A DNA stretch of 55,872 bases, taken from contig DASTZZ010000112.1 in assembly GCA_035764005.1 (NCBI GenBank), forward strand, positions 1 through 55,872, given 5' to 3'. The position numbers and the translations under genes are program-made. A model generated the notes under the pieces. That model saw only the letters and a program-made list of their open reading frames with translations, made no database searches and was not told the origin of the DNA. This DNA comes from Terriglobales bacterium. GTDB lineage: Bacteria > Acidobacteriota > Terriglobia > Terriglobales > Acidobacteriaceae. Below are positions 12,171 to 36,611 of this stretch, one piece after another. The stretch's first letter is position 1, and every line of letters starts with the position of its first letter.

Positions 12171-12263
12171 CGCACAAACCGCAGCTGCCCCATCGCGTAG
12201 CACCCCAGCAATCGTAAAATCGGCGATCGCCGGGGACCCTGCCTACCGGCGCCGGTTCCGTTA
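12171..12263. repeat. Repeat family C, copy 2
   Basis: One clear end is present, reading TAACGGAACCGGCGCC on the minus strand. Its TAA is the stop codon of the TolC-like gene. The opposite end is degenerate (CAGCAGCCGCACAAACCGC). Inner words CACCCCAGCAATCG and CGGGGACC are shared with copy 4. Confidence 0.7.
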
Positions 12264-14387
12264 TTTCGGGTTCTCCTGCGCCATCGGCGATGCTGTCGGA
12301 TTCTGCGCAGCTCCTTGCGGAGTCTGTTGCTGCTGTGTCGGCGTGGTATCAGTGCGGGGTGTCACGTAGGGCACGATCGGCTGCTTGGTGACAACACCGT
12401 TGAACGCGTCCTCGAGCACAATGCCATTGCGCGTCAGCGTGTAGCCGGTCACGCGATCCAGCTCCACGCGCGATTTCTCGTAAGCTGTGCGTGCCGCCAC
12501 GAGATTGCTGTCGGCCGTAGCCAGATCGGTCTCGGTCTGCAGCACGTTGATGTTGGTCGAGGCCCCGAGAGCATACTTCTTCTGCTCGGCGTCGAGACTC
12601 TGCTGGGCAAGCTCGAGCGCCTTTTCGGCAGCTTCGACCTGAGCGCGATCCTGCTGCACGGTGAACTGCGCCTGGCGGACTTGAATCGCAACCTGATTCT
12701 GCAATTGCTGTAACTGCATCTGTGCCTGGCGAAGCTCGAGTTCCGACCGCATCTGGTCAGCCTGGGCTGAGCGGTTCCGAATCGGGATGTTGATCGAGAG
12801 TCCCAGGCCTTTATCGGGAGCGCTGCTGTTGAACAAGTTGCCGACTGTACTACCGTATCCATTGGATGGCAGTGTTCCCGCCGGCGTACAGAAAAGTGGG
12901 TTCACGCCTGGAGATCCACAAGTAGCCAAGGGATTCTGCTCTCCACCGAGCGCTGTGGCGCCGTAAAAAGCCACAAGGTCGACTGAGGGAAGCAGGCCAT
13001 TGGCCGCGGCTTTGCGGTTGATTTCCGAGTTCGTCAGATTGATGCGGGCGCTGGCCAGGTCAGGACGATGAGATAGCGCATCGTTAATCAGATCCTGGAT
13101 GGGAGTGACTGGTTCTTCTGCCGGCATTGCAACTGTGTCGGTAGGAATCACCGGAGCCGCCGCCAAAATTGGGTCCGACAAAGTGCGTGAGAGCGCGTTC
13201 TTCATGAGAAGCTGCTCCAGTTGCAGGTTGGTTTGCGCGACAATCAAAGCCTGCTGATTCGTAGCCACCTGGCTCTGAGCGCGGACTACTTCGATCGGCG
13301 CCAGGGTTCCGATTTCTACCTGCTTCTGATTATCAGCCAGTGTCTTTTGCGCCAACCCCACAGAACGCTCTTTGGCCTTTACATTTTCGTACGCGTTCAC
13401 CAGATCCCAATAGATGTTCTCGATTTGGGAAATCGTTTGGATCACCTGGTTCCGATAGGCAACGTCGGAGATCTCACGATTATTGCGGGCGATACGAATG
13501 AAGCGAGTGTTCAAGCCTATTCCGAAGCCCTGCAGCAGGTGCTGCGTGATAGTCGCGCGAAAACTGGAGTTCAAAGAGGGATTCAGGCTGGTAAACAGGC
13601 TGTTCGTAGTCTGCCGGTTGTTCTGGAACCCGACCGACAAATTCGTGCCGGGCGAAAATCCCTGGTTATAAGAAAAGTTGCCGACAGTAGTGTTCGATCT
13701 CAATTCGGGAACACCGCTGAAAGGATTCGCTTGCGGGCTGATTGTGCGCTCTCCGGTAAACGTGCCGTTCAGGGAAGGATCGAATTGCGGTACCGCTGCG
13801 CCTGCGCCCAGCGTTGAAACCACAATGCCTCCTGATCCCGCTCCGGCTCCCCCGGCTCCCGTGGTAGTGCCTCCGGCTCCAGAGCCTGATGCTCCGGAGG
13901 TGCCCGTTGGATTCTGTCCGCCAGGCGTCCCCTGAACCAAGCCCGTGTTAACGCCGCGCAACGCTTGTCCCGCTTTAGCGCGAAGCACATCAGTATCAGC
14001 AATGGGCAGCGTGTAGCGCGCAATCGCCAAATCGAGATTGTTCTCGAGCGCCAGGGCAATCGCGTCCGACATGGAGAGATAGATCTTTCCGTCGCGTACC
14101 AGTTGATTTAACCGCGGCGAATTTGAAAGATTCGGCGGAGCAACGTTCCTCGTCTTGTACGGCGCAATCGGACCTTTCAGAAAACTGTAGCCGTTCGCAT
14201 AATTGAGGCCGCCAAAGGTTTCGCCGCGACTCGGCTGCACCGTGCTGGCCGGCTGCTGCGGTGTGGGCGCGTTCGGCGTCTCCTGCGCGTTCATCGATGT
14301 GGTAAATAAGAGTGCGCAGCCCAAAGCTGCACTGAGCGGAAGCGTCCGCCTGATCGTTTTACATCCTGACAAACACAACTCACGCAT
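12261..14387 (-). CDS. TolC-family outer-membrane efflux protein
   Basis: A 708-residue precursor with a signal peptide ending near Asn-Ala-Gln. Two outer-membrane-efflux-protein repeats are visible, with long coiled-coil helices such as QIENIYWDLVNAYENVKAKE and TDLATADSNLVAARTAYEKS. It is much longer than typical TolC (about 450-490). The extra length includes a Gly/Thr/Ala-rich low-complexity insert at about residues 150-200 and a Gln/Thr/Pro-rich tail. It would form the outer-membrane duct of a tripartite exporter; no inner-membrane pump or adaptor is adjacent. The stop codon coincides with the end of a family C repeat. Confidence 0.9.
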   Translation of the reverse strand: MRELCLSGCKTIRRTLPLSAALGCALLFTTSMNAQETPNAPTPQQPASTVQPSRGETFGGLNYANGYSFLKGPIAPYKTRNVAPPNLSNSPRLNQLVRDGKIYLSMSDAIALALENNLDLAIARYTLPIADTDVLRAKAGQALRGVNTGLVQGTPGGQNPTGTSGASGSGAGGTTTGAGGAGAGSGGIVVSTLGAGAAVPQFDPSLNGTFTGERTISPQANPFSGVPELRSNTTVGNFSYNQGFSPGTNLSVGFQNNRQTTNSLFTSLNPSLNSSFRATITQHLLQGFGIGLNTRFIRIARNNREISDVAYRNQVIQTISQIENIYWDLVNAYENVKAKERSVGLAQKTLADNQKQVEIGTLAPIEVVRAQSQVATNQQALIVAQTNLQLEQLLMKNALSRTLSDPILAAAPVIPTDTVAMPAEEPVTPIQDLINDALSHRPDLASARINLTNSEINRKAAANGLLPSVDLVAFYGATALGGEQNPLATCGSPGVNPLFCTPAGTLPSNGYGSTVGNLFNSSAPDKGLGLSINIPIRNRSAQADQMRSELELRQAQMQLQQLQNQVAIQVRQAQFTVQQDRAQVEAAEKALELAQQSLDAEQKKYALGASTNINVLQTETDLATADSNLVAARTAYEKSRVELDRVTGYTLTRNGIVLEDAFNGVVTKQPIVPYVTPRTDTTPTQQQQTPQGAAQNPTASPMAQENPK

Positions 14388-14622
14388 GCGCGTTCTCCAA
14401 AATTGCTTTCAGTGAGTGAATAGATTGAGACTACTGCCGTCCGGATTCGTCAACACACAAGAATTTTTCGTCCGAAACAACGATGGATACGATCCACCGG
14501 GCAGATTAGTTCCATCACCGGACAAGGCGCTGCCCGTCCTGTGAGCTATTGTGGGAACGCCTAGTATAAATGATTGTCACTGAAACAGGACTGATTCCGG
14601 TCATAGGAATTAACGGGGAGAG

Positions 14623-14719
14623 GCGAACACGAAGGTCACGAAGGCGAAAGAAGAGGTCACGAAATTTGGTTTCGCCTTTGTGACCTCTTGTGTTTTTGCC
14701 TCGTGACCTTCGTGTTCGC
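14623..14719. repeat. Repeat family A, copy 1
   Basis: Opens GCGAACACGAAGGTCACGAAG and closes with the inverse, CTTCGTGTTCGC, with inner arms AGAGGTCACGAA and TTTGTGACCTCTTG. Six copies of this family occur in the window. It ends 16 bases before the truA start, so upstream in-frame ATGs inside it should not be used as starts. The rest of 14388-14622 shows no gene. Confidence 0.92.
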
Positions 14720-14735
14720 TCTTGGTTTTGATGAA

Positions 14736-15491
14736 ATGTCCCGCAATTTCAAAGTGACCCTGGCCTACGACGGCGCCGATTTCTTCGGTTGGCAGGTTCA
14801 GCCGGATCGCCGCACGATTCAGGGCGAGCTTGCGGATGCGATTCGTCGCGTCACGGGAGAACAGGTTCTGCCGCACGGCTCCGGGCGCACGGATGCCGGC
14901 GTTCACGCGCTTGGTCAAGTCGCGAGCTTCGCGCTGGCAAGTCCCATTCCGGCACCGAATCTGCTTATTGCTCTGAATCACACGTTGCCGCCGTCGATCC
15001 GCGTGCTTGGAGTCGAGGAAGTTGCGCATGATTTTCATGCGCGGCACTCAGCGAAGGCGAAGACCTACGAATACCGCATCTATCGCGGCGACATCTGCCC
15101 GCCGTTTCTGGCTCGCTACGTTCATCATCATCCGTATCCGCTGAACGAGGAGGCGATGGGCCGGGCGGCGGAGTTTGTGATCGGCGAGTATGACTTCACC
15201 AGCTTCGCCGCCGTTGATCCCGAACGTGGGAAAGACGACGAACAGATCGATAACGTGCGTACCATCTTCTCTTCATCTTGGCAGCGTGAGGAAGAGATAT
15301 TCACCTATCGAGTTCGCGGCGATGGATTCCTGCACCACATGGTCCGTAATCTGGTGGGGACGTTTCTATTAGTCGGGAAGGGGAGTCTCGGCGCTGAAGC
15401 GATTCCGAAGATTATCGCCGCGAAGAGCCGTTCCCAAGCTGGGCCTACAGCACCAGCCGAAGGATTGTTCCTGGTTAACGTTGAGTATTAA
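14736..15491 (+). CDS. truA: tRNA pseudouridine(38-40) synthase TruA
   Basis: A 251-residue enzyme that makes pseudouridine at positions 38-40 of the tRNA anticodon arm. It has the N-terminal KVTLAYDGADFFGWQ, the catalytic motif GSGRTDAGVHALGQ with Asp53, and the C-terminal FLHHMVRNLVGT block. The start at 14736 (MSRNFK) fits the family; the longer frame reads into repeat A. The stop TAA is also the first three bases of a family C repeat end. Confidence 0.96.
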   Translation: MSRNFKVTLAYDGADFFGWQVQPDRRTIQGELADAIRRVTGEQVLPHGSGRTDAGVHALGQVASFALASPIPAPNLLIALNHTLPPSIRVLGVEEVAHDFHARHSAKAKTYEYRIYRGDICPPFLARYVHHHPYPLNEEAMGRAAEFVIGEYDFTSFAAVDPERGKDDEQIDNVRTIFSSSWQREEEIFTYRVRGDGFLHHMVRNLVGTFLLVGKGSLGAEAIPKIIAAKSRSQAGPTAPAEGLFLVNVEY

Positions 15492-15691
15492 CGGAACCGG
15501 CGGCTGTAGCCGCTGGGGCAGCCGCTTGTGTTGCGGCTGCTCATAAAGTGCACTACGCGATTGCGATGCTCGCGTTATCACGGAGCTCGGAGTTGGCCAT
15601 TCGGCCAACTCCGACCTACCGCCTACCAGCACCCCAACAGCCGCAAAACCGGCGTCAGTTGGCGACCCCGGTACCGGCGGCGGTTCCGTTA
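15489..15691. repeat. Repeat family C, copy 3 (full length)
   Basis: This 203-base copy has both ends. The left end reads TAACGGAACCGGCGGC; the right end is its inverse, GCGGCGGTTCCGTTA. The left TAA is the stop of truA and the right TTA is the stop of the convergent VOC gene, so the element exactly fills the gap. In the centre, at 15588-15613, an 11-base-pair stem (CGGAGTTGGCC with its complement) closes on a four-base loop. It could act as a two-way terminator. Confidence 0.88.
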
Positions 15692-16069
15692 GTGTCGCAC
15701 TTCGCTCATGATGCTCAGCAGATTGCCTTCGCTGTCGCGGAAGAATGTCATCCACAGATCGTGATCGGGCAGTCTGGCGATCAGATGCGGCGAGTCGACG
15801 AACTGTACGCCACGCGATTTCATCTGCTCGTAGGCTCCATTGATTTCGGTCACCTTGAAATAAATGATTGAGGTTCCGGCTTCGGCCTTCTCCGGCTTGT
15901 CGAGCATCAGGCGAACTCCGCCGCAATCGAAGAACGACAGATTCCCGGCAGAAAAGAGATGCTTCATTCCCAGCTTGTCGCGATAAAACTCCGTCGCCCG
16001 CGCAACGTCCTTCACCAGAACGGCGATTTGGCCGATGCTATTGAGTGCAACTTGGATCCCAGTCGACAT
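15689..16069 (-). CDS. VOC family (glyoxalase-like) protein
   Basis: A 126-residue single VOC domain: IAVLVKDVARATEFYRDKLG, then FFDCGGVRLML and a final DSEGNLLSIMSEV. Such proteins bind a divalent metal and act as lyases, dioxygenases or resistance proteins; the substrate is not clear here. The ATG at 16069 follows AGGAGG by about 6 bases; the upstream GTG lies within that site. It is divergent from a MarR gene, with a perfect palindrome between them, so it is probably the MarR target. Confidence 0.88.
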   Translation of the reverse strand: MSTGIQVALNSIGQIAVLVKDVARATEFYRDKLGMKHLFSAGNLSFFDCGGVRLMLDKPEKAEAGTSIIYFKVTEINGAYEQMKSRGVQFVDSPHLIARLPDHDLWMTFFRDSEGNLLSIMSEVRH

Positions 16070-16100
16070 AGCCACCTCCTAACGGTTGTGCTACGATGCG

Positions 16101-16123
16101 AATAGTTAGCAATGCTAACTATT
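16101..16123. promoter_or_regulatory. Perfect palindrome, probable MarR operator
   Basis: AATAGTTAGC and its exact complement are separated by AAT, giving 10-base-pair arms. It lies in the 70-base gap between the divergent VOC and MarR genes. TAGTTAGC-type palindromes are common binding sites of MarR-family proteins, so autoregulation and control of the VOC gene are likely. Confidence 0.82.
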
Positions 16124-16139
16124 TGAACAGAGCCTGTCA

Positions 16140-16577
16140 ATGCCCAAGAGCCCAAAGCCGTTTGAAGTAGCCGACGCCCTGCATTCCGCGGCCATTCACC
16201 TGCTCCGGCGATTGCGGGTCCAGGATCTGGCCAGTGGCATCGGCCCGGCGAAGCTTTCGGCCTTGTCGGTACTCGTGTTTTCCCGGCGTGCTCTCAGCCT
16301 GGCCGAACTCGCCGGCGCCGAGCAGGTGAAGAATCCCACGATGAGTCGTTTGGTGGCAGCCATGGAGCGCGATGGACTGGTAAGCGTTATGGCCTCCAAA
16401 GAAGATGCCCGTGCGATGCAGATCCGGCCTACAAGGAAAGGCGAGCGTCTGTTGCTGGCGGGAAAAGAACGGCGGGTGAATTCTTTGGCGAAGGTGCTGC
16501 AGGATTTGAACGAGTCAGAGCTGAGTCAATTGGAACAGAGCATAGGCTTATTGCGAAACGTGATTCGGCATCTTTAA
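16140..16577 (+). CDS. MarR family transcriptional regulator
   Basis: A 145-residue winged-helix regulator: SVLVFSRRALSLAELAGAEQ leads into the recognition helix NPTMSRLVAAMERDGLV, followed by the wing with ASKEDARAMQIRPTRKGERL. It most likely binds the palindrome at 16101-16123, 17 bases before its start. The ligand is unknown. It ends 15 bases before the stop of the convergent GNAT gene. Confidence 0.9.
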   Translation: MPKSPKPFEVADALHSAAIHLLRRLRVQDLASGIGPAKLSALSVLVFSRRALSLAELAGAEQVKNPTMSRLVAAMERDGLVSVMASKEDARAMQIRPTRKGERLLLAGKERRVNSLAKVLQDLNESELSQLEQSIGLLRNVIRHL

Positions 16578-16592
16578 AGCACCGGCCAGTGC

Positions 16593-17114
16593 TCAGAGGT
16601 CTTTCGCGTATTCAATCAACGTCATTCCAAAGAAATCCGTCGTACGTCCAGATCGCTCGTAGCCGTTCTTTTCATAGAACTTCATCGCGCGCGCGAGCGG
16701 GAGAGTGGTGTCGAGCGTAGCCCGGTTGCAGCCACTTTCCTGGAGCCACTGCTCGATCGCTCTGAGCAGATTCTTCGCTACTCCGCTGCTCTGATATTCC
16801 GGCAGAACAGCCATGCCGCGGAGATATCCTTCGTGCTCGTCGCAAAGTGACGCTGATACGGTTCCGATGACTTGATTGCCGACAGTTGCCACCAGCATGT
16901 GCATCCGTTGCATCCTGGTTTTGACGGCTAGTGAGTCGAGCACAGTGTCAGCAAATGCAGCCGCAGTGTACAGATGTTTATACGGCGCGAACGCCGCCTG
17001 CAGGCATGCAAGAATCTGATCAGAATCCTGCAGAACGGCTTGCCGTATCTGGAATGCGTGGTCTCTCATTGCCAGGGCGTTCCCATCGCGCCAAGGCCGA
17101 CAAGAGCGATTCAT
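16593..17114 (-). CDS. GNAT family N-acetyltransferase
   Basis: A 173-residue GNAT protein: IRQAVLQDSDQILACLQAAF at the start of the fold, the acetyl-CoA loop LPEYQSSGVAKNLLRAIEQW and the late KFYEKNGYERSGRT. The substrate cannot be told. The ATG at 17114 lies in a 4-base ATGA overlap with the lipB stop, which favours this start over the internal MRDHAFQ at 17069. It is the last gene of the hicB-hicA-lipB-GNAT unit. Confidence 0.87.
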   Translation of the reverse strand: MNRSCRPWRDGNALAMRDHAFQIRQAVLQDSDQILACLQAAFAPYKHLYTAAAFADTVLDSLAVKTRMQRMHMLVATVGNQVIGTVSASLCDEHEGYLRGMAVLPEYQSSGVAKNLLRAIEQWLQESGCNRATLDTTLPLARAMKFYEKNGYERSGRTTDFFGMTLIEYAKDL

Positions 17115-17938
17115 CGCGAGGCTCCTTGGGCGGCCGGCGACGTTTCAGGCGCGAGCGCCTCTTCATTAGTCGCGCCGCCGTGAAGCAGCGCCTCGAGCGA
17201 CTCCAACCAAAGCATCTGGCGAGCGAAGACGCGTCCGAAGTTGAGCGATACCGAGTATGCGACCTGTTCCAGAGTGGGAATCGGCCGTTTGCCCTCAAGC
17301 TCTTGCGCAATCGAAGTGACCGGGCGATCCGAGATGCCGCAGGGGACGATCAGCTTGAAGCAATCAAGATTCGTCGTGACATTCAGGGCAAAGCCGTGGC
17401 TGGTGATGCCGCGCGAAATATGAACGCCGATGGCGGCAATTTTTTTCTGATCCTGATTCGCGGATGCCTCCGACCACGGAGGATCAGTTTGGGAATCGAT
17501 TTGTTCTTTCTGTCCAGAAGTAGTTCCTTGGGTCCAAACTCCAGTCAGTCCGCAAATGCGCCCGCAAGGAATGCTTAAGTCGCCGCAGGTGCGAATCAGC
17601 GCTTCTTCCATGCGACGCACAAATTCGACAGCTCCTAGGCGTGGTGAGAATCCGCGAAGATCAAGAATGGGATAACCGACGAGCTGTCCTGGTCCGTGGA
17701 AGGTGACATCTCCGCCGCGGTTGCTCTCGAAGAGCTCGACCCCGCGGCGTTTCAGAAGCTCATTCGAAGCGAGCAGGTTCTTCTGGCTCGCATTGCGTCC
17801 GAAGGTGATGACTGGAGGATGTTCCAGGAGAAGCAAGACATCTGGAATGCGCTGTTGTTTACGCAGCTCGACTAGCGACTGCTGGAGGTTCAGCGCCGTT
17901 CCGTAGTCGATTGTGCCGAGATGGAGAACGGTGATCAC
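17111..17938 (-). CDS. lipB: Octanoyltransferase LipB
   Basis: A 275-residue enzyme that moves octanoyl groups from acyl carrier protein to lipoyl domains. The motifs RGGDVTFHGPGQLVGYPILD, KIAAIGVHISRGITSHGFALN (with the catalytic Lys) and VPCGI (with the catalytic Cys) are intact. It is longer than usual because of a polar insert (GTTSGQKEQIDSQTDPPW) before the lysine motif and a C-terminal extension. The start is a GTG overlapping the hicA stop by 4 bases (GTGA). Its stop overlaps the GNAT start by 4 bases. Confidence 0.94.
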   Translation of the reverse strand: MITVLHLGTIDYGTALNLQQSLVELRKQQRIPDVLLLLEHPPVITFGRNASQKNLLASNELLKRRGVELFESNRGGDVTFHGPGQLVGYPILDLRGFSPRLGAVEFVRRMEEALIRTCGDLSIPCGRICGLTGVWTQGTTSGQKEQIDSQTDPPWSEASANQDQKKIAAIGVHISRGITSHGFALNVTTNLDCFKLIVPCGISDRPVTSIAQELEGKRPIPTLEQVAYSVSLNFGRVFARQMLWLESLEALLHGGATNEEALAPETSPAAQGASR

Positions 17939-18132
17939 TGATTTTTGCCGATCTCAGGGATGGAGAGATTCTGACAGATTTTGCGGGCTAGCAGATTCGA
18001 GATTTCCGTGTGTCTCGGTACAGCTTCCATCTGCCCGGTTTGTGGGTTCATCCAGAGCTAATGCGATCCTCCGTCCCGTTCTAGAACGCATCCGCAATGA
18101 CGAAGATGTCGCAACAAGGACTCGCGCTTCAT
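17935..18132 (-). pseudogene. hicA: hicA toxin gene with an in-frame amber codon
   Basis: Reading 66 codons from the ATG at 18132 gives a HicA-like protein: MKRESLLRHLRHCGCVLERD, GGSH with the catalytic His24, then LWMNPQTGQMEAVPRHTEI and an ARKICQNLSIPEIGKNQ end. Codon 25 is TAG (18058-18060), where relatives usually have Ser, one base change from TCG. The rest of the frame is intact and ends in GTGA, overlapping lipB. The start overlaps hicB by 4 bases. Translation would stop after 24 residues, so the toxin is probably dead unless the codon is read through or translation restarts at the ATG shortly after. Confidence 0.82.
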
Positions 18133-18344
18133 CGAATGACGACGGTCTCACGCATGGCATCCGGGGGACTGCCTTTTAGCGCGTCCTCGCGTCGGTCTTC
18201 GAGAATTAGCGCAATCGCTTCTGCCAGATTTTGGCGGCACTCCGCAAGGGTTGTGCCCTGACCGTTTGCTCCGGGGATCTCGGGACAATACGCGATGTAC
18301 CAGTCTCCATCGCGCTCGATAATCGCAGTGAATTCATTGTGCAC
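18129..18344 (-). CDS. hicB: HicB family antitoxin
   Basis: A 71-residue HicB-type protein: FTAIIERDGDWYIAYCPEIP, then GQGTTLAECRQNLAEAI and a C-terminal ILEDRREDAL stretch. It has the partial RNase-H-like fold of antitoxins that neutralise HicA. It is upstream of hicA, the reverse of the classic order, and overlaps it by 4 bases. No separate DNA-binding domain is visible. Confidence 0.88.
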   Translation of the reverse strand: MHNEFTAIIERDGDWYIAYCPEIPGANGQGTTLAECRQNLAEAIALILEDRREDALKGSPPDAMRETVVIR

Positions 18345-18386
18345 AGCCGACCTCGTGCCGAACGCTATGAGTAGCTCCAGCTTTTT

Positions 18387-19664: not shown

Positions 19665-19745
19665 CTTGCTCCGAAGTGAAAACGCGAGGGAACAGGCAAG
19701 GGTAGGGGGAAGGAAATGGTGGTGTCAACGGGCACTTCTTTTGCT

Positions 19746-19888
19746 TGTCATTCCGAAGCGCCTGGTGTTGGCGCTGAGGAATCCCTACGGATTTCGAGAA
19801 TCTCCGGATTAAGATCCTCGCAGTCGATAGGGATTTCTCACTCCGGCTCACGCGAACTGCACGCGTGAGCCTCCGTTTCGGAATGACA
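19746..19888. repeat. Repeat family B, copy 2 (long form)
   Basis: The same TGTCATTCCGA...TCGGAATGACA ends as copy 1. The middle is longer, with an added stem CTCACGCG...CGCGTGAG. That extra stem also occurs in copy 3 at 43626-43763, defining a long subtype. Confidence 0.88.
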
Positions 19889-20697: not shown

Positions 20698-20810
20698 GGC
20701 GCGTGAGTATAACGCCGGCGGCGGTCACAGGATTGTGAAATCTCGCCTTAATTCCGGAGTCGTAGGGATGAGCGGCGGTTAACGGATGATCGAACGAACC
20801 TGAGCCGGAT

Positions 20811-20884
20811 CATTTCGTGATTTCGCGATTTCGCGATTGGCTTTCAGCGATTTGAAATCACGAAATCGCGAAATCACGAAATCA
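20811..20884. repeat. Repeat family D, copy 2
   Basis: The clearest copy: CATTTCGTGATTTCGCGATT and then its inverse, AATCGCGAAATCACGAAATC, around a short middle. The arms could pair over about 25 bases. It lies between the divergent double-VOC and lexA genes. Confidence 0.85.
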
Positions 20885-20937
20885 GCAATCAAGCTAATGG
20901 CTTAGATTCTCCAGATACTCGCTTTGCACAAATTCCG

Positions 20938-21597: not shown

Positions 21598-21690
21598 AGC
21601 AGCTACTAGCTACCAGCTACTAGCTGCTAGCTACTACTCAGCCCCGGAGGGGCGACATGTGAGAGCCCAGCACAAGGTGCTGGGTATGCG
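21598..21690. repeat. Short AGCTACTAGCTACC repeats and a GCCCAGCAC hairpin
   Basis: 21598-21638 is a run of GCTAC/GCTGC words (AGCTACTAGCTACCAGCTAC and so on) similar to the 23S-5S spacer. It is followed by GCCCCGGAGGGGC at about 21642-21654 and by a stem AGCCCAGCAC...GTGCTGGGT at about 21664-21687. These may be stacked short repeats and could end the lexA transcript. Confidence 0.6.
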
Positions 21691-24926: not shown

Positions 24927-24938
24927 GCCAGAGCAAGG

Positions 24939-25024
24939 TGAACACGAAGGTCACAAAGGCAACAACAAGGTCACGGAGAAATCTTTGTGACCTCTTCCGT
25001 TTCCTTAGTGACCTTCGTGTTCGC
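24939..25024. repeat. Repeat family A, copy 2
   Basis: GTGAACACGAAGGTCACAAAG on the left and GTGACCTTCGTGTTCGC on the right, with the inner pair AAGGTCACGGAG and TTTGTGACCTCTT. It lies between the divergent DUF2071 and ThyX-like genes. Confidence 0.9.
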
Positions 25025-25072
25025 TTTTCCCCGGTTGCCGTTCGCTCAGAACAAAGTTATGCTGACCTTCCG

Positions 25073-26659: not shown

Positions 26660-26672
26660 AAACGGGGGAAGG

Positions 26673-26761
26673 GCGAACACTGAGGTCACGATGGCAAAGA
26701 GAAGGTCACGGAGAGATCTTCGTGACCTCATGGAGTTTACCTCCGTGGCCTTCGTGTTCGC
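26673..26761. repeat. Repeat family A, copy 3
   Basis: GCGAACACTGAGGTCACGATG on the left and GTGGCCTTCGTGTTCGC on the right. It shows more substitutions than the other copies. It lies just upstream of the recA promoter. Confidence 0.88.
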
Positions 26762-26781
26762 CTTTCCTCGGCAGATTTCCA

Positions 26782-28597: not shown

Positions 28598-28662
28598 TCT
28601 GTCGGAATAGACACCTGCCATCCAAGATACGACTCGGGAGCGACTCTCGGCAATCGGACCCT

Positions 28663-28762
28663 GGAACGGCGAACACGAAGGTCACGAAGACAACAAAAGA
28701 GGTCGCAGAGATTTCTTTGTGACCTCTTGTGTTCCCGTCGTGACCTTCGTGTTCGCCGTTCC
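28663..28762. repeat. Repeat family A, copy 4
   Basis: The most symmetrical copy, with ends GGAACGGCGAACACGAAG and CTTCGTGTTCGCCGTTCC. It shows that the family can extend beyond GAACACG to GGAACGGCGAACACG. Copy 6 shares this long end. It lies between the TetR stop and the start of the gene at 28133-28597; both genes are on the minus strand. Confidence 0.92.
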
Positions 28763-28767
28763 TGCGT

Positions 28768-29537: not shown

Positions 29538-29573
29538 TTACTGCATCTAGTAACTCATCTATCATAGATAGAT
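29538..29573. promoter_or_regulatory. Two palindromes, probable TetR operator
   Basis: ATCTATC-ATA-GATAGAT at 29557-29573 is a perfect inverted repeat. Next to it TTACT-GCATCT-AGTAA at 29538-29553 is a second, shorter one. Both are in the region between the divergent TetR and PilZ genes. This is the usual place for a self-regulating TetR site. Confidence 0.65.
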
Positions 29574-29658
29574 AAATTCCTATCCAAGGTACAATGATGT
29601 GCGGTTCGTCCCTCCGTCTTATTTCCATGTTTCCTTCTTCCCAACCACGGGGCCGGGC

Positions 29659-29979
29659 ATGACGCCGGAAACCGGAACCGAAGCTCGCCGTTACTCGCGC
29701 GTTCAGCTTCCCGTCACGGCCGAGGTCTCGTGCCTGCCTCTGGGATTTTTTCGCCATCCCGCAAGCCTGCGCGACGTCAGCGCAGGAGGCGCGTATTTCT
29801 ACGCGGATATCAGCCCTCAACTCGGAACTGTGATGAAGCTGGATTTCAGTGTGCCCGTCGTCGGCAGCGAGGTTCAGATCTCATGTGAGGGGCCGGTGGT
29901 GAGAGTGGAGAAAAAGGCTCTGGGAGAAGAGAGCGGAATCGCGATCGAGATTTCGAATCTGAATCTCGGATCGTGGTAA
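29659..29979 (+). CDS. PilZ domain protein
   Basis: A 106-residue single PilZ domain, a cyclic-di-GMP receptor fold. The first binding motif RxxxR is in EARRYSRVQLP (Arg10 and Arg14), and the second, D/NxSxxG, is in LRDVSAGGAYF. Both are intact, so c-di-GMP binding is likely. The start at 29659 was preferred because the upstream 20 codons look non-coding. There is no output domain, so it probably acts by binding a partner. Confidence 0.85.
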   Translation: MTPETGTEARRYSRVQLPVTAEVSCLPLGFFRHPASLRDVSAGGAYFYADISPQLGTVMKLDFSVPVVGSEVQISCEGPVVRVEKKALGEESGIAIEISNLNLGSW

Positions 29980-30042
29980 GCGCACTTCTTGTTTCACCAC
30001 GGAGGCACGGAGTACACACAGAAGGCAGTGGTTGGAAGGGGC

Positions 30043-31053
30043 TCAGCTTGTTGAGGAATGTGCGGCCTGGTCAAACTGATCCAGCAACCTGACTTTCTCC
30101 TCTGCTGAGAGGAACGAGGCTTCGAGCGAGTTGCGCGCCAGTTCGCGCACGTGCTCATCGGTGAAGCCGAATACATCTTGCGCGATTTCGTATTCGCGAA
30201 CCAGCGACGTGTGGAACATGGCTGGATCATCACTATTCAGGGTCACGAGCAGACCATCCTCGAACAAGCGCCGGATCGGATGTTGACGAAGCTCAGGCAG
30301 GCATCCCGTAAGTACGTTGCTGGTCATGCAAATCTCGACGGGGACTTGTCGATGCGAGAGTTCTTCGATCAGCTCGGCATCCGCCGAAGCACTCAACACG
30401 TGTCCGAGCCGCTCGGCTCCGATGTTGAGCGCTGCCCAAATCGACTCCGGTCCGGTGGTTTCGCCGGCATGCGCGGTGCGTCTTAAGCCGTTCTCGTCCG
30501 CATACTGGTAGAGCGCTTTAAAGGGTTCCGCCGGACCCTTACGTTCATCGCCGCCGATCCCAACTCCCACGACGTTTCGGTCCTTGTACCGCACTGCGAG
30601 TTCAAAAACGGGCTTCGCCGCTTCTACTCCGAAGTGGCGGACGGCGTCGAAGATCCAGAGCACCGACACCCCGAAGTTACGCCCTCCGCGTTCCCGTGCG
30701 CGCTCGATTCCTTCAAATAAGGGCTCGAACTCCTGCTTTCGCCATTGCACGACGCCCACCGAAAGATACACCTCGGCATGCACCACGCCTTGAGCTTTGA
30801 GTCGCTCGATCATTCGATACGTGATCAGCTCGAAGTCATCGGCGGTGAGTAGACGCTGGGTGACGGCCTTAAAAGCCATCATGAATCCATGAAAATCCGC
30901 GTACTCGTATAAACGATAGGCCTGCTCCGTCGTCAAAGGATCAGCATCATGCCGCCGGCTCAGTTCGACGAGCGTTTCCGGCTCGACTGTACCTTCGAGA
31001 TGAAGATGAAGCTCCGCCTTGGGCAGCGAACGGATTAATTCGGAGTTGGCCAT
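30043..31053 (-). CDS. add: Adenosine deaminase
   Basis: A 336-residue metal-dependent deaminase converting adenosine to inosine. The zinc ligands and catalytic residues are all visible: His16 and His18 in ELHLHLEG, the HAGE motif (TAHAGETTGPES) with the catalytic Glu, the RLGHVLSAS His and the late NSDDPAMF. It would act in purine salvage. Relatives include adenine deaminases, so the exact base is not certain. Confidence 0.93.
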   Translation of the reverse strand: MANSELIRSLPKAELHLHLEGTVEPETLVELSRRHDADPLTTEQAYRLYEYADFHGFMMAFKAVTQRLLTADDFELITYRMIERLKAQGVVHAEVYLSVGVVQWRKQEFEPLFEGIERARERGGRNFGVSVLWIFDAVRHFGVEAAKPVFELAVRYKDRNVVGVGIGGDERKGPAEPFKALYQYADENGLRRTAHAGETTGPESIWAALNIGAERLGHVLSASADAELIEELSHRQVPVEICMTSNVLTGCLPELRQHPIRRLFEDGLLVTLNSDDPAMFHTSLVREYEIAQDVFGFTDEHVRELARNSLEASFLSAEEKVRLLDQFDQAAHSSTS

Positions 31054-31163
31054 CGCCGACGATTACTTTAAATGATGGCTGGAATTACTTTTGTGCGCGT
31101 GCAACTTCTCAGCCTTGGTGTTAATCAGATGTGGTGCCGATGTACTTCTCCGGGAGCAGTACT

Positions 31164-31280
31164 ATGAAACTCGCCGCTTCGCAATCCGATACAAACGCTT
31201 CCTCCTGGAACGAACGCGTGCTCATCGCCGCGGTTGTGGTCACGATGGTGCTGTCGTTGCTTGGGTACATGCATGCGTAG
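31164..31280 (+). CDS. Possible small membrane protein, 38 aa
   Basis: A 39-codon frame starts ATGAAACTCGC, with GGGAG 8 bases upstream. It has a polar front (SDTNASSWNERV) and one hydrophobic helix (LIAAVVVTMVLSLLGYMHA). It is shorter than most annotation limits. The ribosome-binding site and the clean helix argue that it is real; there is no homology support. It lies alone between add and a repeat. Confidence 0.45.
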   Translation: MKLAASQSDTNASSWNERVLIAAVVVTMVLSLLGYMHA

Positions 31281-31371
31281 GAGCTGCTAAGCTCCTAAGC
31301 TGCTGAGCTTCTCGGCTTCACGAAAGGCTCAACTAGCGTGACTCCTCATTGCTGTCATTTTCTTTAATTCA

Positions 31372-31457
31372 CTGTCATCCCTCGCGCCGCCGCGAAAACC
31401 TTTCATTCGATCACTTAGTATTTGCGGCGCGGGGGATCTGCTTTTGCTTGATCCCCG
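31372..31457. repeat. Repeat family G, copy 2
   Basis: Starts CTGTCATCCCTCGCGCCGC and contains GCGGCGCGGGGGATCTGCTT, matching the inverse of copy 1 at 11944-12105. It is only about half as long. It lies just past the 3' end of the DppB-type permease gene. Confidence 0.65.
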
Positions 31458-31470
31458 AGATCACGAACTT

Positions 31471-32388
31471 CTATTGCCGAATGCGCGGATTCACCACCGC
31501 ATATAACACGTCGGTGAATAGGTTCACGACGATGTAGGTAAGCCCGATTGCCAGAATGCATCCCTGCACGAGGAAGTAGTCGCGAGTGCTGATCGCAGTG
31601 AGCGTCAGCCTCCCAATACCTGGCCAGGAGAAGATCGTTTCCGTCACGATCGCGCCGGCGAGCAGTGCGCCGAACTGCAGTCCGACAACCGTTAGCACGG
31701 GGATCATCGCGTTACGCAAAGCGTGCTTATACACAACCGTGCGTTCGCTCAAGCCTTTGGCGCGGGCAGTACGGATATAGTCCTGACCTAGTTCTTCGAG
31801 CATTGCCGTCCGCACCATTCTTGTGAGGATCGCGGCCATGGCTCCGCCCATGGTGATGGCGGGCAGCATAAGATGCTCCCACCTGCCCGCGCCGGAAACC
31901 GGAAGTAGACCCAGCTTGATAGCAAAAAATAGAATAAGAATCGGTCCGAGTGCGAAATTGGGAAAGGACAAGCCGAAGAGACTTACTACGCTCAACGCGC
32001 GATCATCCCAGCGGTCGCGCCGTCGGGCCGAGCGCACTCCCGCGGGAATTGATAACCCAAGCGCAACGATGAGCGCTGCAATGGTCAGCCGCAATGTGTA
32101 CGGATACCGCTCCCAGATCACGCGGCCAACATCCTGATTCAAACGAATTGACTGCCCCAGTCGACCATGCAGCACGCCGTTCCAATAATGAACATATTGC
32201 TCGCCGATAGGCAGATCGAGTCCATAAGCATGTCGCGCCGCCTGCAAGTCCGCGCTCGCAGCGCCTTCGCCGAGCATCGCCTGGATGGGATCGCCGGGCA
32301 CAAGGTGAATCATCAGGAAGACCACCGAAACCACCAGCCAGAGGACTGGCAGGGTGTACAGCAGGCGAGATGTAAGAAGGCGAACCAT
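31471..32388 (-). CDS. DppB-type ABC transporter permease (orphan)
   Basis: A 305-residue inner-membrane permease of peptide/nickel importers. It has the N-terminal VVSVVFLMIHLVPGDPIQAML, a periplasmic loop, and the cytoplasmic EAA-type loop (YIRTARAKGLSERTVVYKHAL) that touches the ATPase. It ends LFTDVLYAVVNPRIRQ. No binding protein, DppC, or ATPase gene is adjacent, so it works with partners elsewhere or is a leftover. The start ATG at 32388 abuts the end of a family C repeat, so its own promoter must lie within or beyond the repeat. Confidence 0.92.
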   Translation of the reverse strand: MVRLLTSRLLYTLPVLWLVVSVVFLMIHLVPGDPIQAMLGEGAASADLQAARHAYGLDLPIGEQYVHYWNGVLHGRLGQSIRLNQDVGRVIWERYPYTLRLTIAALIVALGLSIPAGVRSARRRDRWDDRALSVVSLFGLSFPNFALGPILILFFAIKLGLLPVSGAGRWEHLMLPAITMGGAMAAILTRMVRTAMLEELGQDYIRTARAKGLSERTVVYKHALRNAMIPVLTVVGLQFGALLAGAIVTETIFSWPGIGRLTLTAISTRDYFLVQGCILAIGLTYIVVNLFTDVLYAVVNPRIRQ

Positions 32389-32623
32389 AAACGGAACCGG
32401 CGGCGGTAACGCGGGGTCCCCAGCAATCGCCGCCGTTGCGGTTGCTGGGGTGCTGGCCGGTGGGTCGGAGGTGGCCGCATGGCCAGCTCCGAGCAATACG
32501 ACACTGTTCAGGACCTCGTGAATCGCAGCCGAAAACGACACGGCTGCCCCACCGCCTAGCACCCGAGCAATCGCAAAAGCGGCGCTTACTGGGGACCCCG
32601 CTCTACCGTCGCTGGTTCTGTTA
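32389..32623. repeat. Repeat family C, copy 4
   Basis: A 235-base copy. The left end AAACGGAACCGGCGGCGG adjoins the DppB-type start. The right end on the minus strand is TAACAGAACCAGC, whose TAA is the stop of the CBS/CorC gene. The inner stem TCGGAGGTGGCC...TGGCCAGCTCCGAG is present. It also contains CACCCCAGCAA-type words (GTCCCCAGCAATCG). Confidence 0.85.
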
Positions 32624-34003
32624 CGTCTCGCGAAACAGCGACGGCTGTTCTTCCTGTGCTGCCACATTCGCGGGAGCGAGCGCCTCGACTTTCACTTGCA
32701 GCACGCGACGGTCCTGCATCTGCATCACCGTGTACCGGCGGGCCTCAAACTCCAGTGAATCTCCCACGCGCGGCAGACGTCCGAGACGCCACATGATGAA
32801 TCCTCCGAGTGTCTCAAAGCCTTCATCTCGCGGCAGGCGGATGTGAAGGTGCGATTCCAGGTCGCGAATGTTCGCACCACCTTCAAGGATCAGCTCTCCG
32901 GTTTCGAGCAGACGAGGTTGTACGGCGATGTCGAACTCGTCTTCGATTTCGCCGACGATCTGCTCCAGCGCGTCTTCCACGGTTACCAGCCCCACTGTGG
33001 AACCGTATTCATCGACCACAATCGCCAAATGCCGTTTGCGCTGGCGAAACTCATCCAGCAAGTCGAGCACAGGTTTAGTCTCAGGCACAACCAGCACATC
33101 GCGCATCACGTGACGGACACGCAGAGTCATTTCGCTCGTAATACCGCGCTCGCGAGTGGACATGCGCAGGTGCATGAATCGCGCCAGATCCTTCGAATAC
33201 AGCACACCGACGATGTGCTCTTTTCCCAATTTAGGATCGTAGACGGGAATGCGCGAATGCTGGTCCTCGACCACTCGCGCCATCGCGTCTTCCAGCGTCA
33301 TGTCGGCGGGAAGGGAAAACATGTTCTGCCGCGGCACCAGGATCTCGCGCACCGTCATGTTCTCGAGATCAAGGGTGCGATGCATGATCTCTTCCTGAAA
33401 TGGAGGGAGCAGTCCCAGGCGTCGGCTGGAGGTGAGAATGAGCTTCAACTCTTCGGGCGAGTGCATGCCGCCTTCGCGCATCAGACGCGATCCGAAGAGT
33501 TTCAAAACGGCGTTCGCCGAATTGGTCATCAGGTGCAGCAGCGGACGCGAGATGGTAATGAAGACGTCCATCGGTCCAGCTACTGATAAGGCGACCCGCT
33601 CCACCCGCTGCAGGGCGAGCGATTTCGGCACCAGCTCGCCCAGGATCACGTGGAAGTAGGTGATCAGTACAAATGCGATTACGACCGCCGCAGTGTGGGC
33701 GTAAACCATCGCATGAGGCAGTCCCTGAATGGGACGGAGGAGCAGTTGCGCGATCGCAGGCTCGCCGATCCAGCCGAGAGCCAGGCTGGCGAGCGTGACT
33801 CCAAATTGGACCGCAGGCAGGAAGTCGTCCAGATGCTGCTGCAAGCGCTGGACGGTGCGCGCGCCGGTGCGTCGGGCGTCGATCAATTGCTGGATGCGCG
33901 TGTCACGAACGCTGACGATCGCAAACTCGGCCGCCACAAAAAACGCATTCAGGGCCACCAGCAACACGACCACCAGAATGCGGAGGAGCACCAGGGTCGC
34001 CAT
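32621..34003 (-). CDS. CNNM/CorC-type transporter or hemolysin-like protein
   Basis: A 460-residue protein of the HlyC/CorC (CNNM) group. The N-terminal DUF21 domain has about four membrane helices (to about residue 190), including LNAFFVAAEFAIVSVR and FHVILGELVPKSLAL. Two CBS domains follow (about 215-340; VREILVPRQNMFSL and VDEYGSTVGLVTVEDALEQI), then the CorC-type C-terminal domain. Members take part in Mg/Co efflux. The stop TAA coincides with the end of repeat C copy 4. Confidence 0.93.
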   Translation of the reverse strand: MATLVLLRILVVVLLVALNAFFVAAEFAIVSVRDTRIQQLIDARRTGARTVQRLQQHLDDFLPAVQFGVTLASLALGWIGEPAIAQLLLRPIQGLPHAMVYAHTAAVVIAFVLITYFHVILGELVPKSLALQRVERVALSVAGPMDVFITISRPLLHLMTNSANAVLKLFGSRLMREGGMHSPEELKLILTSSRRLGLLPPFQEEIMHRTLDLENMTVREILVPRQNMFSLPADMTLEDAMARVVEDQHSRIPVYDPKLGKEHIVGVLYSKDLARFMHLRMSTRERGITSEMTLRVRHVMRDVLVVPETKPVLDLLDEFRQRKRHLAIVVDEYGSTVGLVTVEDALEQIVGEIEDEFDIAVQPRLLETGELILEGGANIRDLESHLHIRLPRDEGFETLGGFIMWRLGRLPRVGDSLEFEARRYTVMQMQDRRVLQVKVEALAPANVAAQEEQPSLFRET

Positions 34004-34021
34004 TGGTGGTTAGTCTAGCAG

Positions 34022-34219
34022 GCCACGGCAAAAGAACCGCTGCCGGTAGGTGTGGGTCGGAGATGGCCGAATGGCCGGCTCGGAGCGATGTGAGAATCTT
34101 CGGAAACTGAGAAGCGTAGCCGCAACACAAGCGGCAGCCCGCGGGATTAGATGAAGCGCAACCGGAATCACACCACCGGCGCTTGCTTGCTACCACGCCT
34201 ATCGCCGCCGGTTCTGTTA
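34022..34219. repeat. Repeat family C, copy 5
   Basis: The right end, TAACAGAACCGGCGGCGAT on the minus strand, includes the stop of the gene at 34217-34603. The left end is weaker, GCAAAAGAACCGCTGCCGG. The inner stem TCGGAGATGGCCGAATGGCCGG...GGAG is present. The copy lies between the start of the CBS/CorC gene and the stop of the next minus-strand gene. Confidence 0.8.
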
Positions 34220-34603
34220 CTGCGCTTTCGGAAGGCGCTCGCGTCCGAGCCGTCGATATGCCTCGTCGAGCGTGCGCACCACAATGAAGTGCGGACGCTG
34301 CTCGCTGCCGAAGGTTTGAAACATTCGCCCGAGTCCAAAGATCAGATCCTGCGGTGCTACAAGGACCCGCCTGGCACGCGCGTGAAAGGGACTGTCGTGG
34401 GAAGCCAGTTCGCGCACGTCGTAGGAGGGAACCTCGAATGACGTAACTCCACTGGCGTCAATCAATTCGTCGAAATCGGGATTGAAATCAGGATGCTTGC
34501 GGATGCGCGCAATGTGCTGCACCAGGTCAGTAGTAGTCATTTCGCCGTAGTACGACGAAAAGACCATTCTCGACTTAGGCTCAATAGTAAGTTTGGTAGG
34601 CAT
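34217..34603 (-). CDS. Hypothetical protein, possibly STAS/SpoIIAA-like, 128 aa
   Basis: A 128-residue soluble protein with the order strand-strand-helix (RMVFSSYYGEMTTTDLVQHI), then FDELIDASGVTSFEV and a late HFIVVRTLDEAYRRLG helix. This arrangement resembles small SpoIIAA/STAS-like proteins common in this phylum, but a firm family call is not made. The start ATG at 34603 was chosen for its fit; the longer frame begins in unlikely sequence. Its stop lies in repeat C copy 5. Confidence 0.65.
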   Translation of the reverse strand: MPTKLTIEPKSRMVFSSYYGEMTTTDLVQHIARIRKHPDFNPDFDELIDASGVTSFEVPSYDVRELASHDSPFHARARRVLVAPQDLIFGLGRMFQTFGSEQRPHFIVVRTLDEAYRRLGRERLPKAQ

Positions 34604-34818
34604 CCGCGCGTTTTTCGTTAGATGCGTCGTCTGTAAACACCGCAATGTCCGGGTCCGCTTACTTTTACCTCTTTTTCAGGTCTAAGGTGCATTGCGTTTT
34701 CTGTTGTCATGGGACAGGCTGGACTGCGGAACCTTGGGAACCTTTGGCGGGTTGCTGGCGTATGAAGCTCTAGCAAACGCGAGGCGGTCGGCGGCAGCGG
34801 AGAGATTTGGAGGATTTA

Positions 34819-36030
34819 GTGGCGAACGGCAATCATAAGAATAAGAAGAAGCGGCGCATTTGGTGGATTGGCTCGACAGTGTTTGTAGTACTGATGGTGG
34901 CCATCGTTGCGACCAAGGCGACGAGCAGCAGCACCAAAATCGATCCCACCAAGATCGCAACCATCGAGCAGGGCGATCTGGCCCAAAGCGTTGTCGCCAC
35001 TGGCAAGATCCAGCCGATTACGAAAGTCGAAGTGAAGTCCAAGGCGAGCGGTATCGTGAAGAAGGAATTGGTCGATGCCGGCGATCGCGTGAAAGCCGGC
35101 CAGGTTCTCGCCGAACTCGATAAAGAAGAGCTGCAGGCGCAGGTTCGCGGTGATGAGGCGCAGCTTACTGCGGCCGAGGCGAATCTGCGGGCCTCTGAAG
35201 CTGATGTCGAGCGCTCGAAGGTCGATGCCGAAGGTGTCGATGTTCCCACTCTCCAGCGCGCTTATCAACGAGCGCAGACCATGGCTTCGCAGGGAGTGGT
35301 TTCCGCTTCCGCTCTGGACGACGCGCAGCGTAACTACGAGATGGCGGTCAACAAACGCGATCTTGCTCGCGCTCAGCTCACCATCAATGAAGCAAAAGTA
35401 AAACAGGCACAAGCGCAAGTTACGCAGTACAAAGCATCTCTGGCGCGTTCGGAAGAGCAGCTTAACTACGCGACGATAGTTGCTCCCATAGATGGCGAGG
35501 TGCTCTCCCGCGATGTGGAAGTCGGCGATGCCGTCAGTTCCATTCTGGTACTCGGCTCGTCGGCAACTTTGGTGATGACGCTCGGCAACATGAAGCAGGT
35601 CTATGTCGATGGCAAGGTGGACGAGAGCGATATCGGCAAGGTCTACCTCGGGCAGCCGGCGCGGATCAAAGTCGAGTCATTCAAAGATAAGACCTTCAAC
35701 GGGAAAGTGACGAAGATCGCGCCCATGGGCGTGGAGAAAGACAACGTGACCACCTTCCAGGTTCGCGTCTCCATCGATAACTCCGGCGGCGAACTCAAAG
35801 CGTTAATGACAGCGAATGCCGAGATCATCCTCAAGGAAGATCACAACGTGCTCATCGTTCCCGAGAACGCGATCATCTACGACAAAGATAAGAAGGCGCA
35901 GGTCGAAGTCCCTGATCCGAAGGGTAAGGACGGCAAGCGCAAAGTCGCGGTCACCGTGGGAATTTCCAATGGCGCCAAAACGGAACTGCTCAGCGGCTTG
36001 CGTAAGGGCGACAAGGTTGTGCTGCAGTAG
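34819..36030 (+). CDS. Periplasmic adaptor (membrane-fusion protein) of an efflux pump
   Basis: A 403-residue HlyD/MacA-type adaptor. One N-terminal membrane helix (IWWIGSTVFVVLMVAIVAT) is followed by a beta-barrel/lipoyl half-motif (GIVKKELVDAGDRVKAGQVLAELDK), a coiled-coil hairpin (about 95-200), the second lipoyl half (ATIVAPIDGEVLSRDVEVGD) and a C-terminal barrel. The start is a GTG at 34819, 5 bases after GGAGG; the upstream TTG is inside that site. No ATPase or RND pump is adjacent. The DUF4097 and ADOP genes follow on the same strand, so the group could be an ADOP-linked export system. Confidence 0.9.
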   Translation: MANGNHKNKKKRRIWWIGSTVFVVLMVAIVATKATSSSTKIDPTKIATIEQGDLAQSVVATGKIQPITKVEVKSKASGIVKKELVDAGDRVKAGQVLAELDKEELQAQVRGDEAQLTAAEANLRASEADVERSKVDAEGVDVPTLQRAYQRAQTMASQGVVSASALDDAQRNYEMAVNKRDLARAQLTINEAKVKQAQAQVTQYKASLARSEEQLNYATIVAPIDGEVLSRDVEVGDAVSSILVLGSSATLVMTLGNMKQVYVDGKVDESDIGKVYLGQPARIKVESFKDKTFNGKVTKIAPMGVEKDNVTTFQVRVSIDNSGGELKALMTANAEIILKEDHNVLIVPENAIIYDKDKKAQVEVPDPKGKDGKRKVAVTVGISNGAKTELLSGLRKGDKVVLQ

Positions 36031-36202
36031 TGTGGTGCAGTCATGCGGGGAACACCGAAAATTCCGCAAATGACGCGCTCCGATTTCGCTTGACTTTCGC
36101 CCGATTTCGCGATAGCACGGAAGTATGGGCGTTGCACCAATTCGGGAATGCCGCCAGGCGATGGAGTGCGTCGTAAGTTTCGTTTTGGCACAAGCGTCGT
36201 TT

Positions 36203-36299
36203 GCAACCCATCCGAGGTCGTCGGCAACCCATCCGCGGCAGGGTAGCCCTGAGGATTTCTCAGCGTAACCCTGTGGAAATCTCAGGGTAACCCTGAAGG
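36203..36299. repeat. Tandem repeats downstream of the adaptor gene
   Basis: GCAACCCATCCG occurs twice (36203 and 36224). Then a 22-base unit GTAACCCTGTGGAAATCTCAGG occurs about 2.6 times (36243-36264, 36265-36286, 36287-36299), with some differences. The units also contain CCTGAGG/CCCTGAAGG inverse words. The rest of 36031-36474 holds no credible gene. Confidence 0.75.
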
Positions 36300-36474
36300 A
36301 AGATGGGTTGGAGCTGCGTGGAAGTCGAGCAGGAGTTTTCCGCCAAGTTGCTTATACCAAAGCAGATGACGGGGAAAGAAGCTCCCAGGATTTCCGCTTC
36401 CGCAGTTAATCGAAAAGTGCTGCGGCCGTCTTACTCGCATGGTTTAGGTCTGAATCGGGTGTGTTTCGGAGGCG

Positions 36475-36611
36475 AACAGAACCGCCGGCGGTGGCCGGTG
36501 GGGCAGGCGCGTGTTTCGCGGCTGCGGTCCGCGAGAATGCGCGGCATCGTGTTGCTCGGAGCTGGCCATTCGGCCATCTCCGACCCACCGCCTACAGGCG
36601 GCGGTTCCGTA
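36475..36611. repeat. Repeat family C, copy 6
   Basis: A 137-base copy with both ends: AACAGAACCGCCGGCGG on the left and GGCGGCGGTTCCGT on the right. The inner stem TCGGAGCTGGCCATTCGGCCATCTCCGA is near perfect. Neither end touches a stop codon; the copy lies free in the gap before the DUF4097 gene. Confidence 0.85.

Follow-up and report, generated by a model that had tools for sequence, protein, structure and literature searches.

Ends of a REP-like palindromic repeat coincide with stop codons in the genome of a Terriglobales bacterium

Repeat copies and gene ends in the window

The window analysed in this study is a whole stretch of 55,872 nucleotides from a Terriglobales bacterium (contig DASTZZ010000112.1 of assembly GCA_035764005.1), and it harbors six copies of a palindromic repeat, designated family C, whose ends coincide with the stop codons of several flanking genes. 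The element consists of two inverted end units with one or more inner hairpins between them, and each end unit comprises a tip and foot, AAC(R)GAACC, together with a small hairpin, NCGSC-GGTA-GSCGN. An initial annotation of the window had listed six copies with ends of the form AAC(G/A)GAACCG; the copies were recovered at the stated positions, with ends that read AAC(G/A)GAACC. A central stem, GGAG..TGGCC/GGCCA..CTCC, had been attributed to most copies; it was seen in four of the six (15490, 32390, 34030, and 36475), and none was seen in the copies at 934 and 12171.

The five stop codons named in that annotation are all TAA, and at each of them the T lies outside the repeat and the AA lies inside. 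Copy 2 (12171..12262, minus strand) has one intact end, with its outermost base at 12262 (TAACGGAACCG at 12263-12253), which scored 26.6 bits with profile R1, a sequence-only model of the repeat end built from 34 ends; its other end was not found. The stop codon of an outer membrane efflux protein gene (12261..12263, minus strand) has its T at 12263 outside and its AA within this copy, and the congener match of the gene (82%) ends at the same codon, also with TAA. Copy 3 (15490..15690, plus strand), a complete long form, occupies the whole gap between a tRNA pseudouridine synthase gene, called truA, and a glyoxalase-family gene, with both stops at its edges, just as had been stated. The truA stop (15489..15491, plus strand) and that of the glyoxalase/VOC-family gene (15689..15691, minus strand) each consist of a T plus the AA of copy 3. 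In three congeners, truA ends at the same codon (TAA, TAG, and TAG), and the glyoxalase/VOC-family proteins of three congeners are 3 residues longer.

Copy 4 (32390..32622, minus strand), another long form, contributes the AA of the stop codon of a CNNM/CBS/CorC_HlyC-domain gene (32621..32623, minus strand). It occupies the place of a spacer of approximately 24 nt that follows the CNNM-family gene in congeners G003 and G001, and it adjoins the ATG of the next gene. Among five congeners, the CNNM/CBS/CorC_HlyC gene ends at the same codon in three (TAG, TAA, and TAA), is longer by 1 residue in one (TGA), and shorter by 2 in one (TGA). Copy 5 (34030..34218, minus strand) has one decayed end (AAAAGAACCGC), and its AA lies in the stop codon of a short gene (34217..34219, minus strand) that had no Pfam match; the genes at the other four stops were named from Pfam. 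Copy 1 (934..984, plus strand; 33.2 bits with R1; D8 family) is a half element with one end only, away from stop codons, and copy 6 (36475..36611, plus strand) is a short form with a gene stop at neither end. Profile R1 also detected decayed ends at 34033 and 32622.

Stop-codon register of the repeat ends across the genome

A search of the 5.1-Mb draft genome with R1 gave at least 151 matches at E ≤ 1, of which 150 candidates were scored, so that the set of ends is incomplete. Eighty-five stretches were taken around the R1 and BLAST matches, and the ends were located by a position weight matrix, which gave 64 paired copies and 45 single ends; six of the latter, with scores below 15, were dropped, and one duplicate (window 32621) was removed. 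The working set thus held 167 ends from approximately 103 copies (64 pairs and 39 single ends), which is a lower bound. Genes were called with a purpose-made codon model.

A gene 3' end was faced by 95 of the 167 repeat ends. In 41 of these 95, the stop codon ended exactly at nucleotide 2 of the repeat, compared with seven at nucleotide 20, three at nucleotide 1, and none at nucleotide 0; each of the offsets from -1 to -12 held 0 to 5 ends. Within the range of -60 to +5, 41 of the 77 facing ends were at offset 2 (p = 1.7e-53 against a uniform distribution). A model-free count of the genome gave 50 occurrences of TAACRGAACC and 21 of the reversed control. No single-offset spike was seen for three other repeat families found in these stretches, with small numbers of facing ends (7, 2, and 4). 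A chance meeting of the repeat ends with TAA had nothing in its favor beyond the small number of cases first seen in the window, and it is refuted by the set examined (p~1e-53). Most copies do lie off stop codons, with at least one end at nucleotide 2 in 40 of 103 (25 of the 64 pairs and 15 of the 39 single ends); the register is nevertheless far beyond chance.

Short left-over stubs, TAACRGAACC, were considered as an extra class and rejected: a coding frame ran into the TAA in 14 of the 30 examined, and just one of the 14 (L378) was new to the set. At this locus (near 1500; contig C68 of the window's genome, G000, 35467-35476, minus strand), a monomer, CAGAACCACCTGCGGTAGCGGGTGGCGC, stands at the T|AA of a coding frame, directly upstream of a frame starting MAHKK, which resembles ribosomal protein L27, perhaps in an essential operon.

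The stops at nucleotide 2 were 34 TAA and seven TGA. TAG can hardly occur there because the repeat nearly always has A at this position. This ratio of TAA to TGA differs from that of the called genes (96:106, with 89 TAG; p = 2.6e-5) and fits the first letter of the repeat itself away from gene 3' ends (A:G, 56:15; p = 0.8). Away from gene 3' ends, the AA is retained at most ends, with A at position 1 in 56 of 80 and at position 2 in 73 of 80. The letters common to the stop and the repeat therefore look element-derived, as judged from these letter counts. Read in frame from the gene side, the tip is N-AA-CRG-AAC-CGN-CGS-CGG-TAG; a T before it gives an immediate stop, and any other base in the same frame leads to a stop at the TAG of the hairpin loop, six codons on. 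The seven genes that stop at nucleotide 20 are in this frame and have tails such as QNRRR.

A-type and C-type ends, which have an inner GGAG/GGTG or GGGGTCCCC hairpin next to them, accounted for 33 of the 41 stops among 105 ends, compared with eight among 62 B-type ends (p = 0.009). The CGGA variant of the foot was more frequent at stop-linked ends (18/41) than away from gene 3' ends (20/80; p = 0.04).

The end hairpin was supported by covariation in 149 ends. Pair 14-21 was GC in 83 and CG in 53 and was standard in 138 (shuffle mean, 75; maximum, 91), and pair 11-24 was standard in 107 (shuffle mean, 75; maximum, 90); the remaining three pairs vary little and did not exceed the best shuffle. 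Since the two ends of a copy match each other no more than shuffled ends do, each end is a hairpin of its own. Long-range pairing between the two ends was rejected, position 14 agreeing in 21 of the 64 copies, below the 31 expected. Some family C copies (in L085, L126, L063, L092, and L124, at about 1560-1760) are located within or close to a different inverted repeat, formed by AGGCTGCGGAAAAATGC and its complement.

These hairpins bear on the idea that the host selects the copies as a 3'-end control module, that is, an mRNA stabiliser, a terminator, or a translation brake such as that of repetitive extragenic palindromes (REPs). Escherichia coli REPs are reported to stall ribosomes when they lie no more than 15 nt from a stop codon (PMC12306157); the end hairpin of family C begins 8 bases past the stop, inside this range, and three whole copies folded as RNA gave z values of -6.3 (copy 6), -12.7, and -2.2. 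Both repeats place a hairpin directly past the stop codon, but the E. coli repeats lie downstream of the stop, whereas family C overlaps it. However, such a function needs no one-base register. The mobile terminator suggested initially gained no support: six terminator-like matches were found in 32300-36700, and shuffles gave 4.1 ± 1.7. Copies 4 and 6 contain one match each, and the one in copy 6 is the end hairpin with a weakly T-rich tail (GGTTCTGTT). An Rfam scan of the window gave three matches above the gathering score, none at a family C copy. Furthermore, the repeat did not significantly avoid sites between divergent genes, which held 4 of the 55 paired copies that have neighbors on both sides and made up 24 of the 190 gaps in these stretches, and ten genes checked in Pfam were of mixed kinds. 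A host module is thus very improbable.

Y1 transposase genes and known repeat systems

Twelve matches to Y1_Tnp were found in the genome. One of these genes (L109) sits directly between two family C copies; its enzyme has the motifs TNHVHV, YVWTE, and YVVNGQ and scored 24.2 bits against Pfam Y1_Tnp (cut-off, 23); a PDB sequence search gave no relevant match. The TGA stop of this gene lies within a decayed end (GACTGAACT) of the adjoining copy (L109, 1781-1786). A second Y1 gene (L246, 1387-2127; contig C25 near 75 kb) lies between inverted GTCAGTACC / GTCAGTACCG..GGTAGCGGATGGGTGAGTC repeats, and together they make up a second repeat-enzyme pair of this genome, related to the first but distinct from it. 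Among the remaining Y1_Tnp genes, a lone family C end lies over 1 kb from one, and the DNA taken around the other nine contains none.

Among 150 genomes of the order, two (G000 and G001) contained relatives of the L109 enzyme at E ≤ 1e-15, and a more distant one was present in G002 (L179). In the fetched DNA, a CAGWACC-like hairpin end accompanied these relatives at five of six places, L353 and L354 being counted as one place and L109 itself excluded; the match at C62 was poor, and L352 had none.

The repeat is abundant in the window's genome, with 128 R1 ends at E ≤ 1e-3 under stricter filters. At the same settings, three congeners had 10, 2, and 4 such ends, two had none, and none was found in 35 more distant genomes. 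Moreover, no repeat start was seen in the portions examined of the congener sequence just 3' of matching stops. Together with the Y1 gene between two copies, these results indirectly support the mobility proposed initially. No target-site duplication above shuffles was found in the 64 paired copies at lengths of 2-6, 8, and 9 with four boundary choices, and this agrees with a single-strand Y1 mechanism. The duplication expected of a miniature inverted-repeat transposable element of a DDE transposase was thus lacking.

The class 3 TnpA-Y1 systems are likewise acidobacterial, with an HUH-Y1 enzyme carrying NHVH, W[TA], and Y----Q, and the enzyme gene is flanked by hairpins with the foot CnGA (PMC6006769), which is CRGA here. 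Among the 154 of the 167 ends that were tabulated, C was found at position 3 in 149, G at position 5 in 154, and A at position 6 in 152. The class 3 repeats reach high copy numbers, approximately 600 in Solibacter usitatus (PMC6006769). In contrast, the present genome has approximately 103 copies, many in the form of inverted doublets that enclose inner hairpins, and the tip is AAC. The full Y motif of class 3 is YV[VI][AENY]EQ (PMC6006769); YVVNGQ fits it at five of six positions, ending in GQ here and in EQ there. In the foot CRGA and the enzyme motifs, the repeat and its enzyme largely fit class 3. The term "stop codon" is absent from the main text of that report.

The GTAG REPs, REPINs, and BIMEs associated with RAYT enzymes share further features with family C, in that they are extragenic palindromes, frequently in doublet form, that lie near the 3' ends of genes and have a linked Y1 enzyme (PMC3733652). 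The termini of GTAG REPs often provide a TAG stop to flanking open reading frames (PMC3733652), and REPs can directly follow the stop codon of rayt (PMC2817692). In family C, however, GGTA forms the loop that closes a covarying stem rather than an unpaired foot, so that the class 2 foot was not recovered; the main stop is T plus the AA of the tip, and the enzyme is far under the cut-off of the RAYT model. Class 2 enzymes are reported to cleave at CT or CA dinucleotides, with the foot determining the choice (PMC8266576); the T|AA register could not be derived from this rule. The TIRYT/TIR families of Koribacter and other Acidobacteria also have a Y1 gene between inverted repeats that recur genome-wide (PMC3733652). 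In the literature surveyed, mostly freely accessible papers, repeat ends providing stop codons were stated only in PMC3733652, and nothing was met there on a T+AA register such as that of the 41 ends, on the comparison with congeners, or on the age trend described below.

Insertion and retention at stop codons, and other repeats in the window

The congener DNA comprised 1.75 Mb, 1.57 Mb of it from G001, and a match was defined as the best tblastn hit of at least 60%. Such a match was found for 13 of the 41 genes with a stop at nucleotide 2. Nine of these 13 ended at the same codon in the closest congener, as did 35 of 46 controls (p = 0.7); therefore, the stops at nucleotide 2 are mostly native. 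Three of the four that differed are shorter here than in the congener, the glyoxalase-family gene by 3 residues, L061 by 4, and L120 by 2, and the fourth, L080, is longer by 2. Own and congener stops were TAA/TAG in seven genes, TAA/TAA in three, TGA/TAA in two, and TGA/TGA in one. For the genes ending in TAA, the congener had TAG in seven of 10, compared with three of 13 controls (p = 0.04), which weakly suggests that the letters of the element may have replaced those of the old stop. Thus, the earlier proposal that the element supplies stop codons holds in that the stop shares the conserved AA of the repeat, is mostly a native codon, and follows the repeat in its TAA:TGA ratio; the replacement of old letters is weakly backed (p = 0.04 to 0.17).

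We favor, with a probability of about 0.5, the reading that family C is a REP-like mobile palindrome that inserts silently at stop codons and is then retained. The likeliest agent of its spread is a class 3 IS200-like Y1 transposase that this genome encodes, presumably an enzyme of the L109 type. A copy would insert behind the T of a stop codon, and such an insertion would be silent because the AA (or GA) of the repeat rebuilds the stop. After a same-frame insertion behind another base, translation would end at the loop TAG six codons on. Three of the seven nucleotide-20 genes had a congener match. Compared with a congener protein of 88% identity, an amino-acid permease (L136) has lost its last 16 residues and carries a new 6-residue tail that ends in QNRRR, the congener frame of the L066 gene is much longer, and the comparison for L080 is equivocal. 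Loss of a stop-linked copy would be difficult, since translation would read past the gene end after an inexact deletion; therefore, such copies would accumulate while others vanish. The spike may then be due mainly to retention, perhaps acting together with a degree of insertion preference.

The share of ends at offset 2 rose with the decay of the end, from 8/25 in the most canonical third to 15/27 in the middle and 18/25 in the most degenerate third (extremes, p = 0.01). The short paired copies that were stop-linked had a median identity to the consensus of 0.748 (n = 14), compared with 0.824 (n = 31) for the others (p = 0.011). Furthermore, half-lost single copies were more often stop-linked (15/39 ends vs 26/128, p = 0.03).

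Several points weigh against silent insertion plus retention. The end set is incomplete, the gene calls are our own, age is a proxy from sequence decay, decayed ends are visible only while they still match, and three congener matches (70, 71, and 73%) could be paralogs. The L109 enzyme scored 25.1 bits against the NCBIfam REP_Tyr_transpos (RAYT) model, with a cut-off of 80. When the TAA and TGA genes were pooled, the congener had TAG in 7/13 vs 8/28 controls (p = 0.17), and adding the genes near other offsets to the controls gave p = 0.11. Simple insertion behind T predicts the remainder of the old stop in the far flank, yet just five of 25 far flanks start with AA, AG, or GA; the retention of the last two bases of the old stop on the far side was rejected as a general rule on this count. 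At truA the rule does fit, the far flank being AG and the stop TAG in two of three congeners. In addition, offset 1 (TA|A or TG|A) would be about equally silent, yet it was found at three ends vs 41, and the canonical third had 8/25 at offset 2 vs two at offset 1. Since the canonical ends already show this share, retention alone is insufficient for the spike. Therefore, some insertion preference, or a retention rule not understood, probably also acts.

In a rival explanation, the target favored by the transposition machinery is the stop codon, or some signal associated with it, and the cut falls after the T. The one-base precision (41 ends vs 3 at the next offset) and the share of offset 2 even among canonical ends speak for it, and the congener stops at these sites were TAG or TAA in 12/13, compared with 29/46 controls (p = 0.049). 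However, a T precedes just 13 of 80 ends away from gene 3' ends and four of 33 other ends near a gene 3' end; the former count excludes a general T target. A DNA transposase cannot read the frame, so a TAG/TAA preference should show in intergenic DNA as well. We consider this targeting, and with it the initially proposed landing at stop codons as a target preference, doubtful but conceivable. It may also be conceived, tentatively, that the repeat is a mobile "stop-codon cap" aimed behind the stop T, with a tip shaped for stops, an AA that replaces two letters, and a second in-frame stop in the loop, gene ends being a safe and lasting home.

In a further explanation, the element starts at C (CRGAACC) and inserts after RA; the TAA and TGA would then be old stops left intact, with the A/G-A pair contributed by the target. 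The related repeats of G001 mostly start with CAGWACC without AA, and one G001 copy with an AAC tip stands at a TAA stop (L146 and L318). The use of TAA and TGA, and not TAG, also agrees with it, and the TAA excess fits an AA-preferring target as well as an AA-supplying element. On the other hand, the AA is kept away from genes (56/80 and 73/80), on both ends of a copy, and the stop found most often in the congeners is TAG (7/13), which could not serve this model. RA sites would be common in any 3' flank, so that no spike is expected from the model alone. Of 47 G001 ends, 20 faced a gene 3' end, with stops at nucleotide 2 in one, nucleotide 1 in two, and nucleotide 20 in four. Since these repeats, mostly without AA, gave 1/20 at nucleotide 2, the spike goes with the AA tip. 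Intact old stops are an unlikely source of the register.

If silent insertion plus retention is correct, family C would represent, with one-base precision and in many copies, a selfish element that is harmless in a compact bacterial genome as part of the stop signal. Joining a stop codon is suggested to protect the element from loss, which may offer a concrete and testable reason for the clustering of REP-like repeats at gene 3' ends. The copies also form a natural data set on target choice by the little-studied class 3 Y1 transposases.

Other repeats were observed in the window. A second palindromic family (GGCGAACACGAAGGTCACGAAGGC and its complement) lies at 14617-14725, 24932-25035, 26667-26767, 28658-28767, 37669-37775, and 54434-54540; several copies are a few bases past gene stops, with no single-offset spike among seven facing ends. 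A third family (GTCATTCCGA..GAGGAATCCCTAC) was found at 6197-6282, 52568-52651, 54022-54066, 19739-19788, and 53942-53991. Tandem 8-base units, AAATCACG/ATTTCGTG, occur in both orientations at 4057-4176, 20804-20904, and 48697-48732, and an Acido-Lenti-1 RNA (41.4 bits) lies at 21640-21684 on the minus strand.

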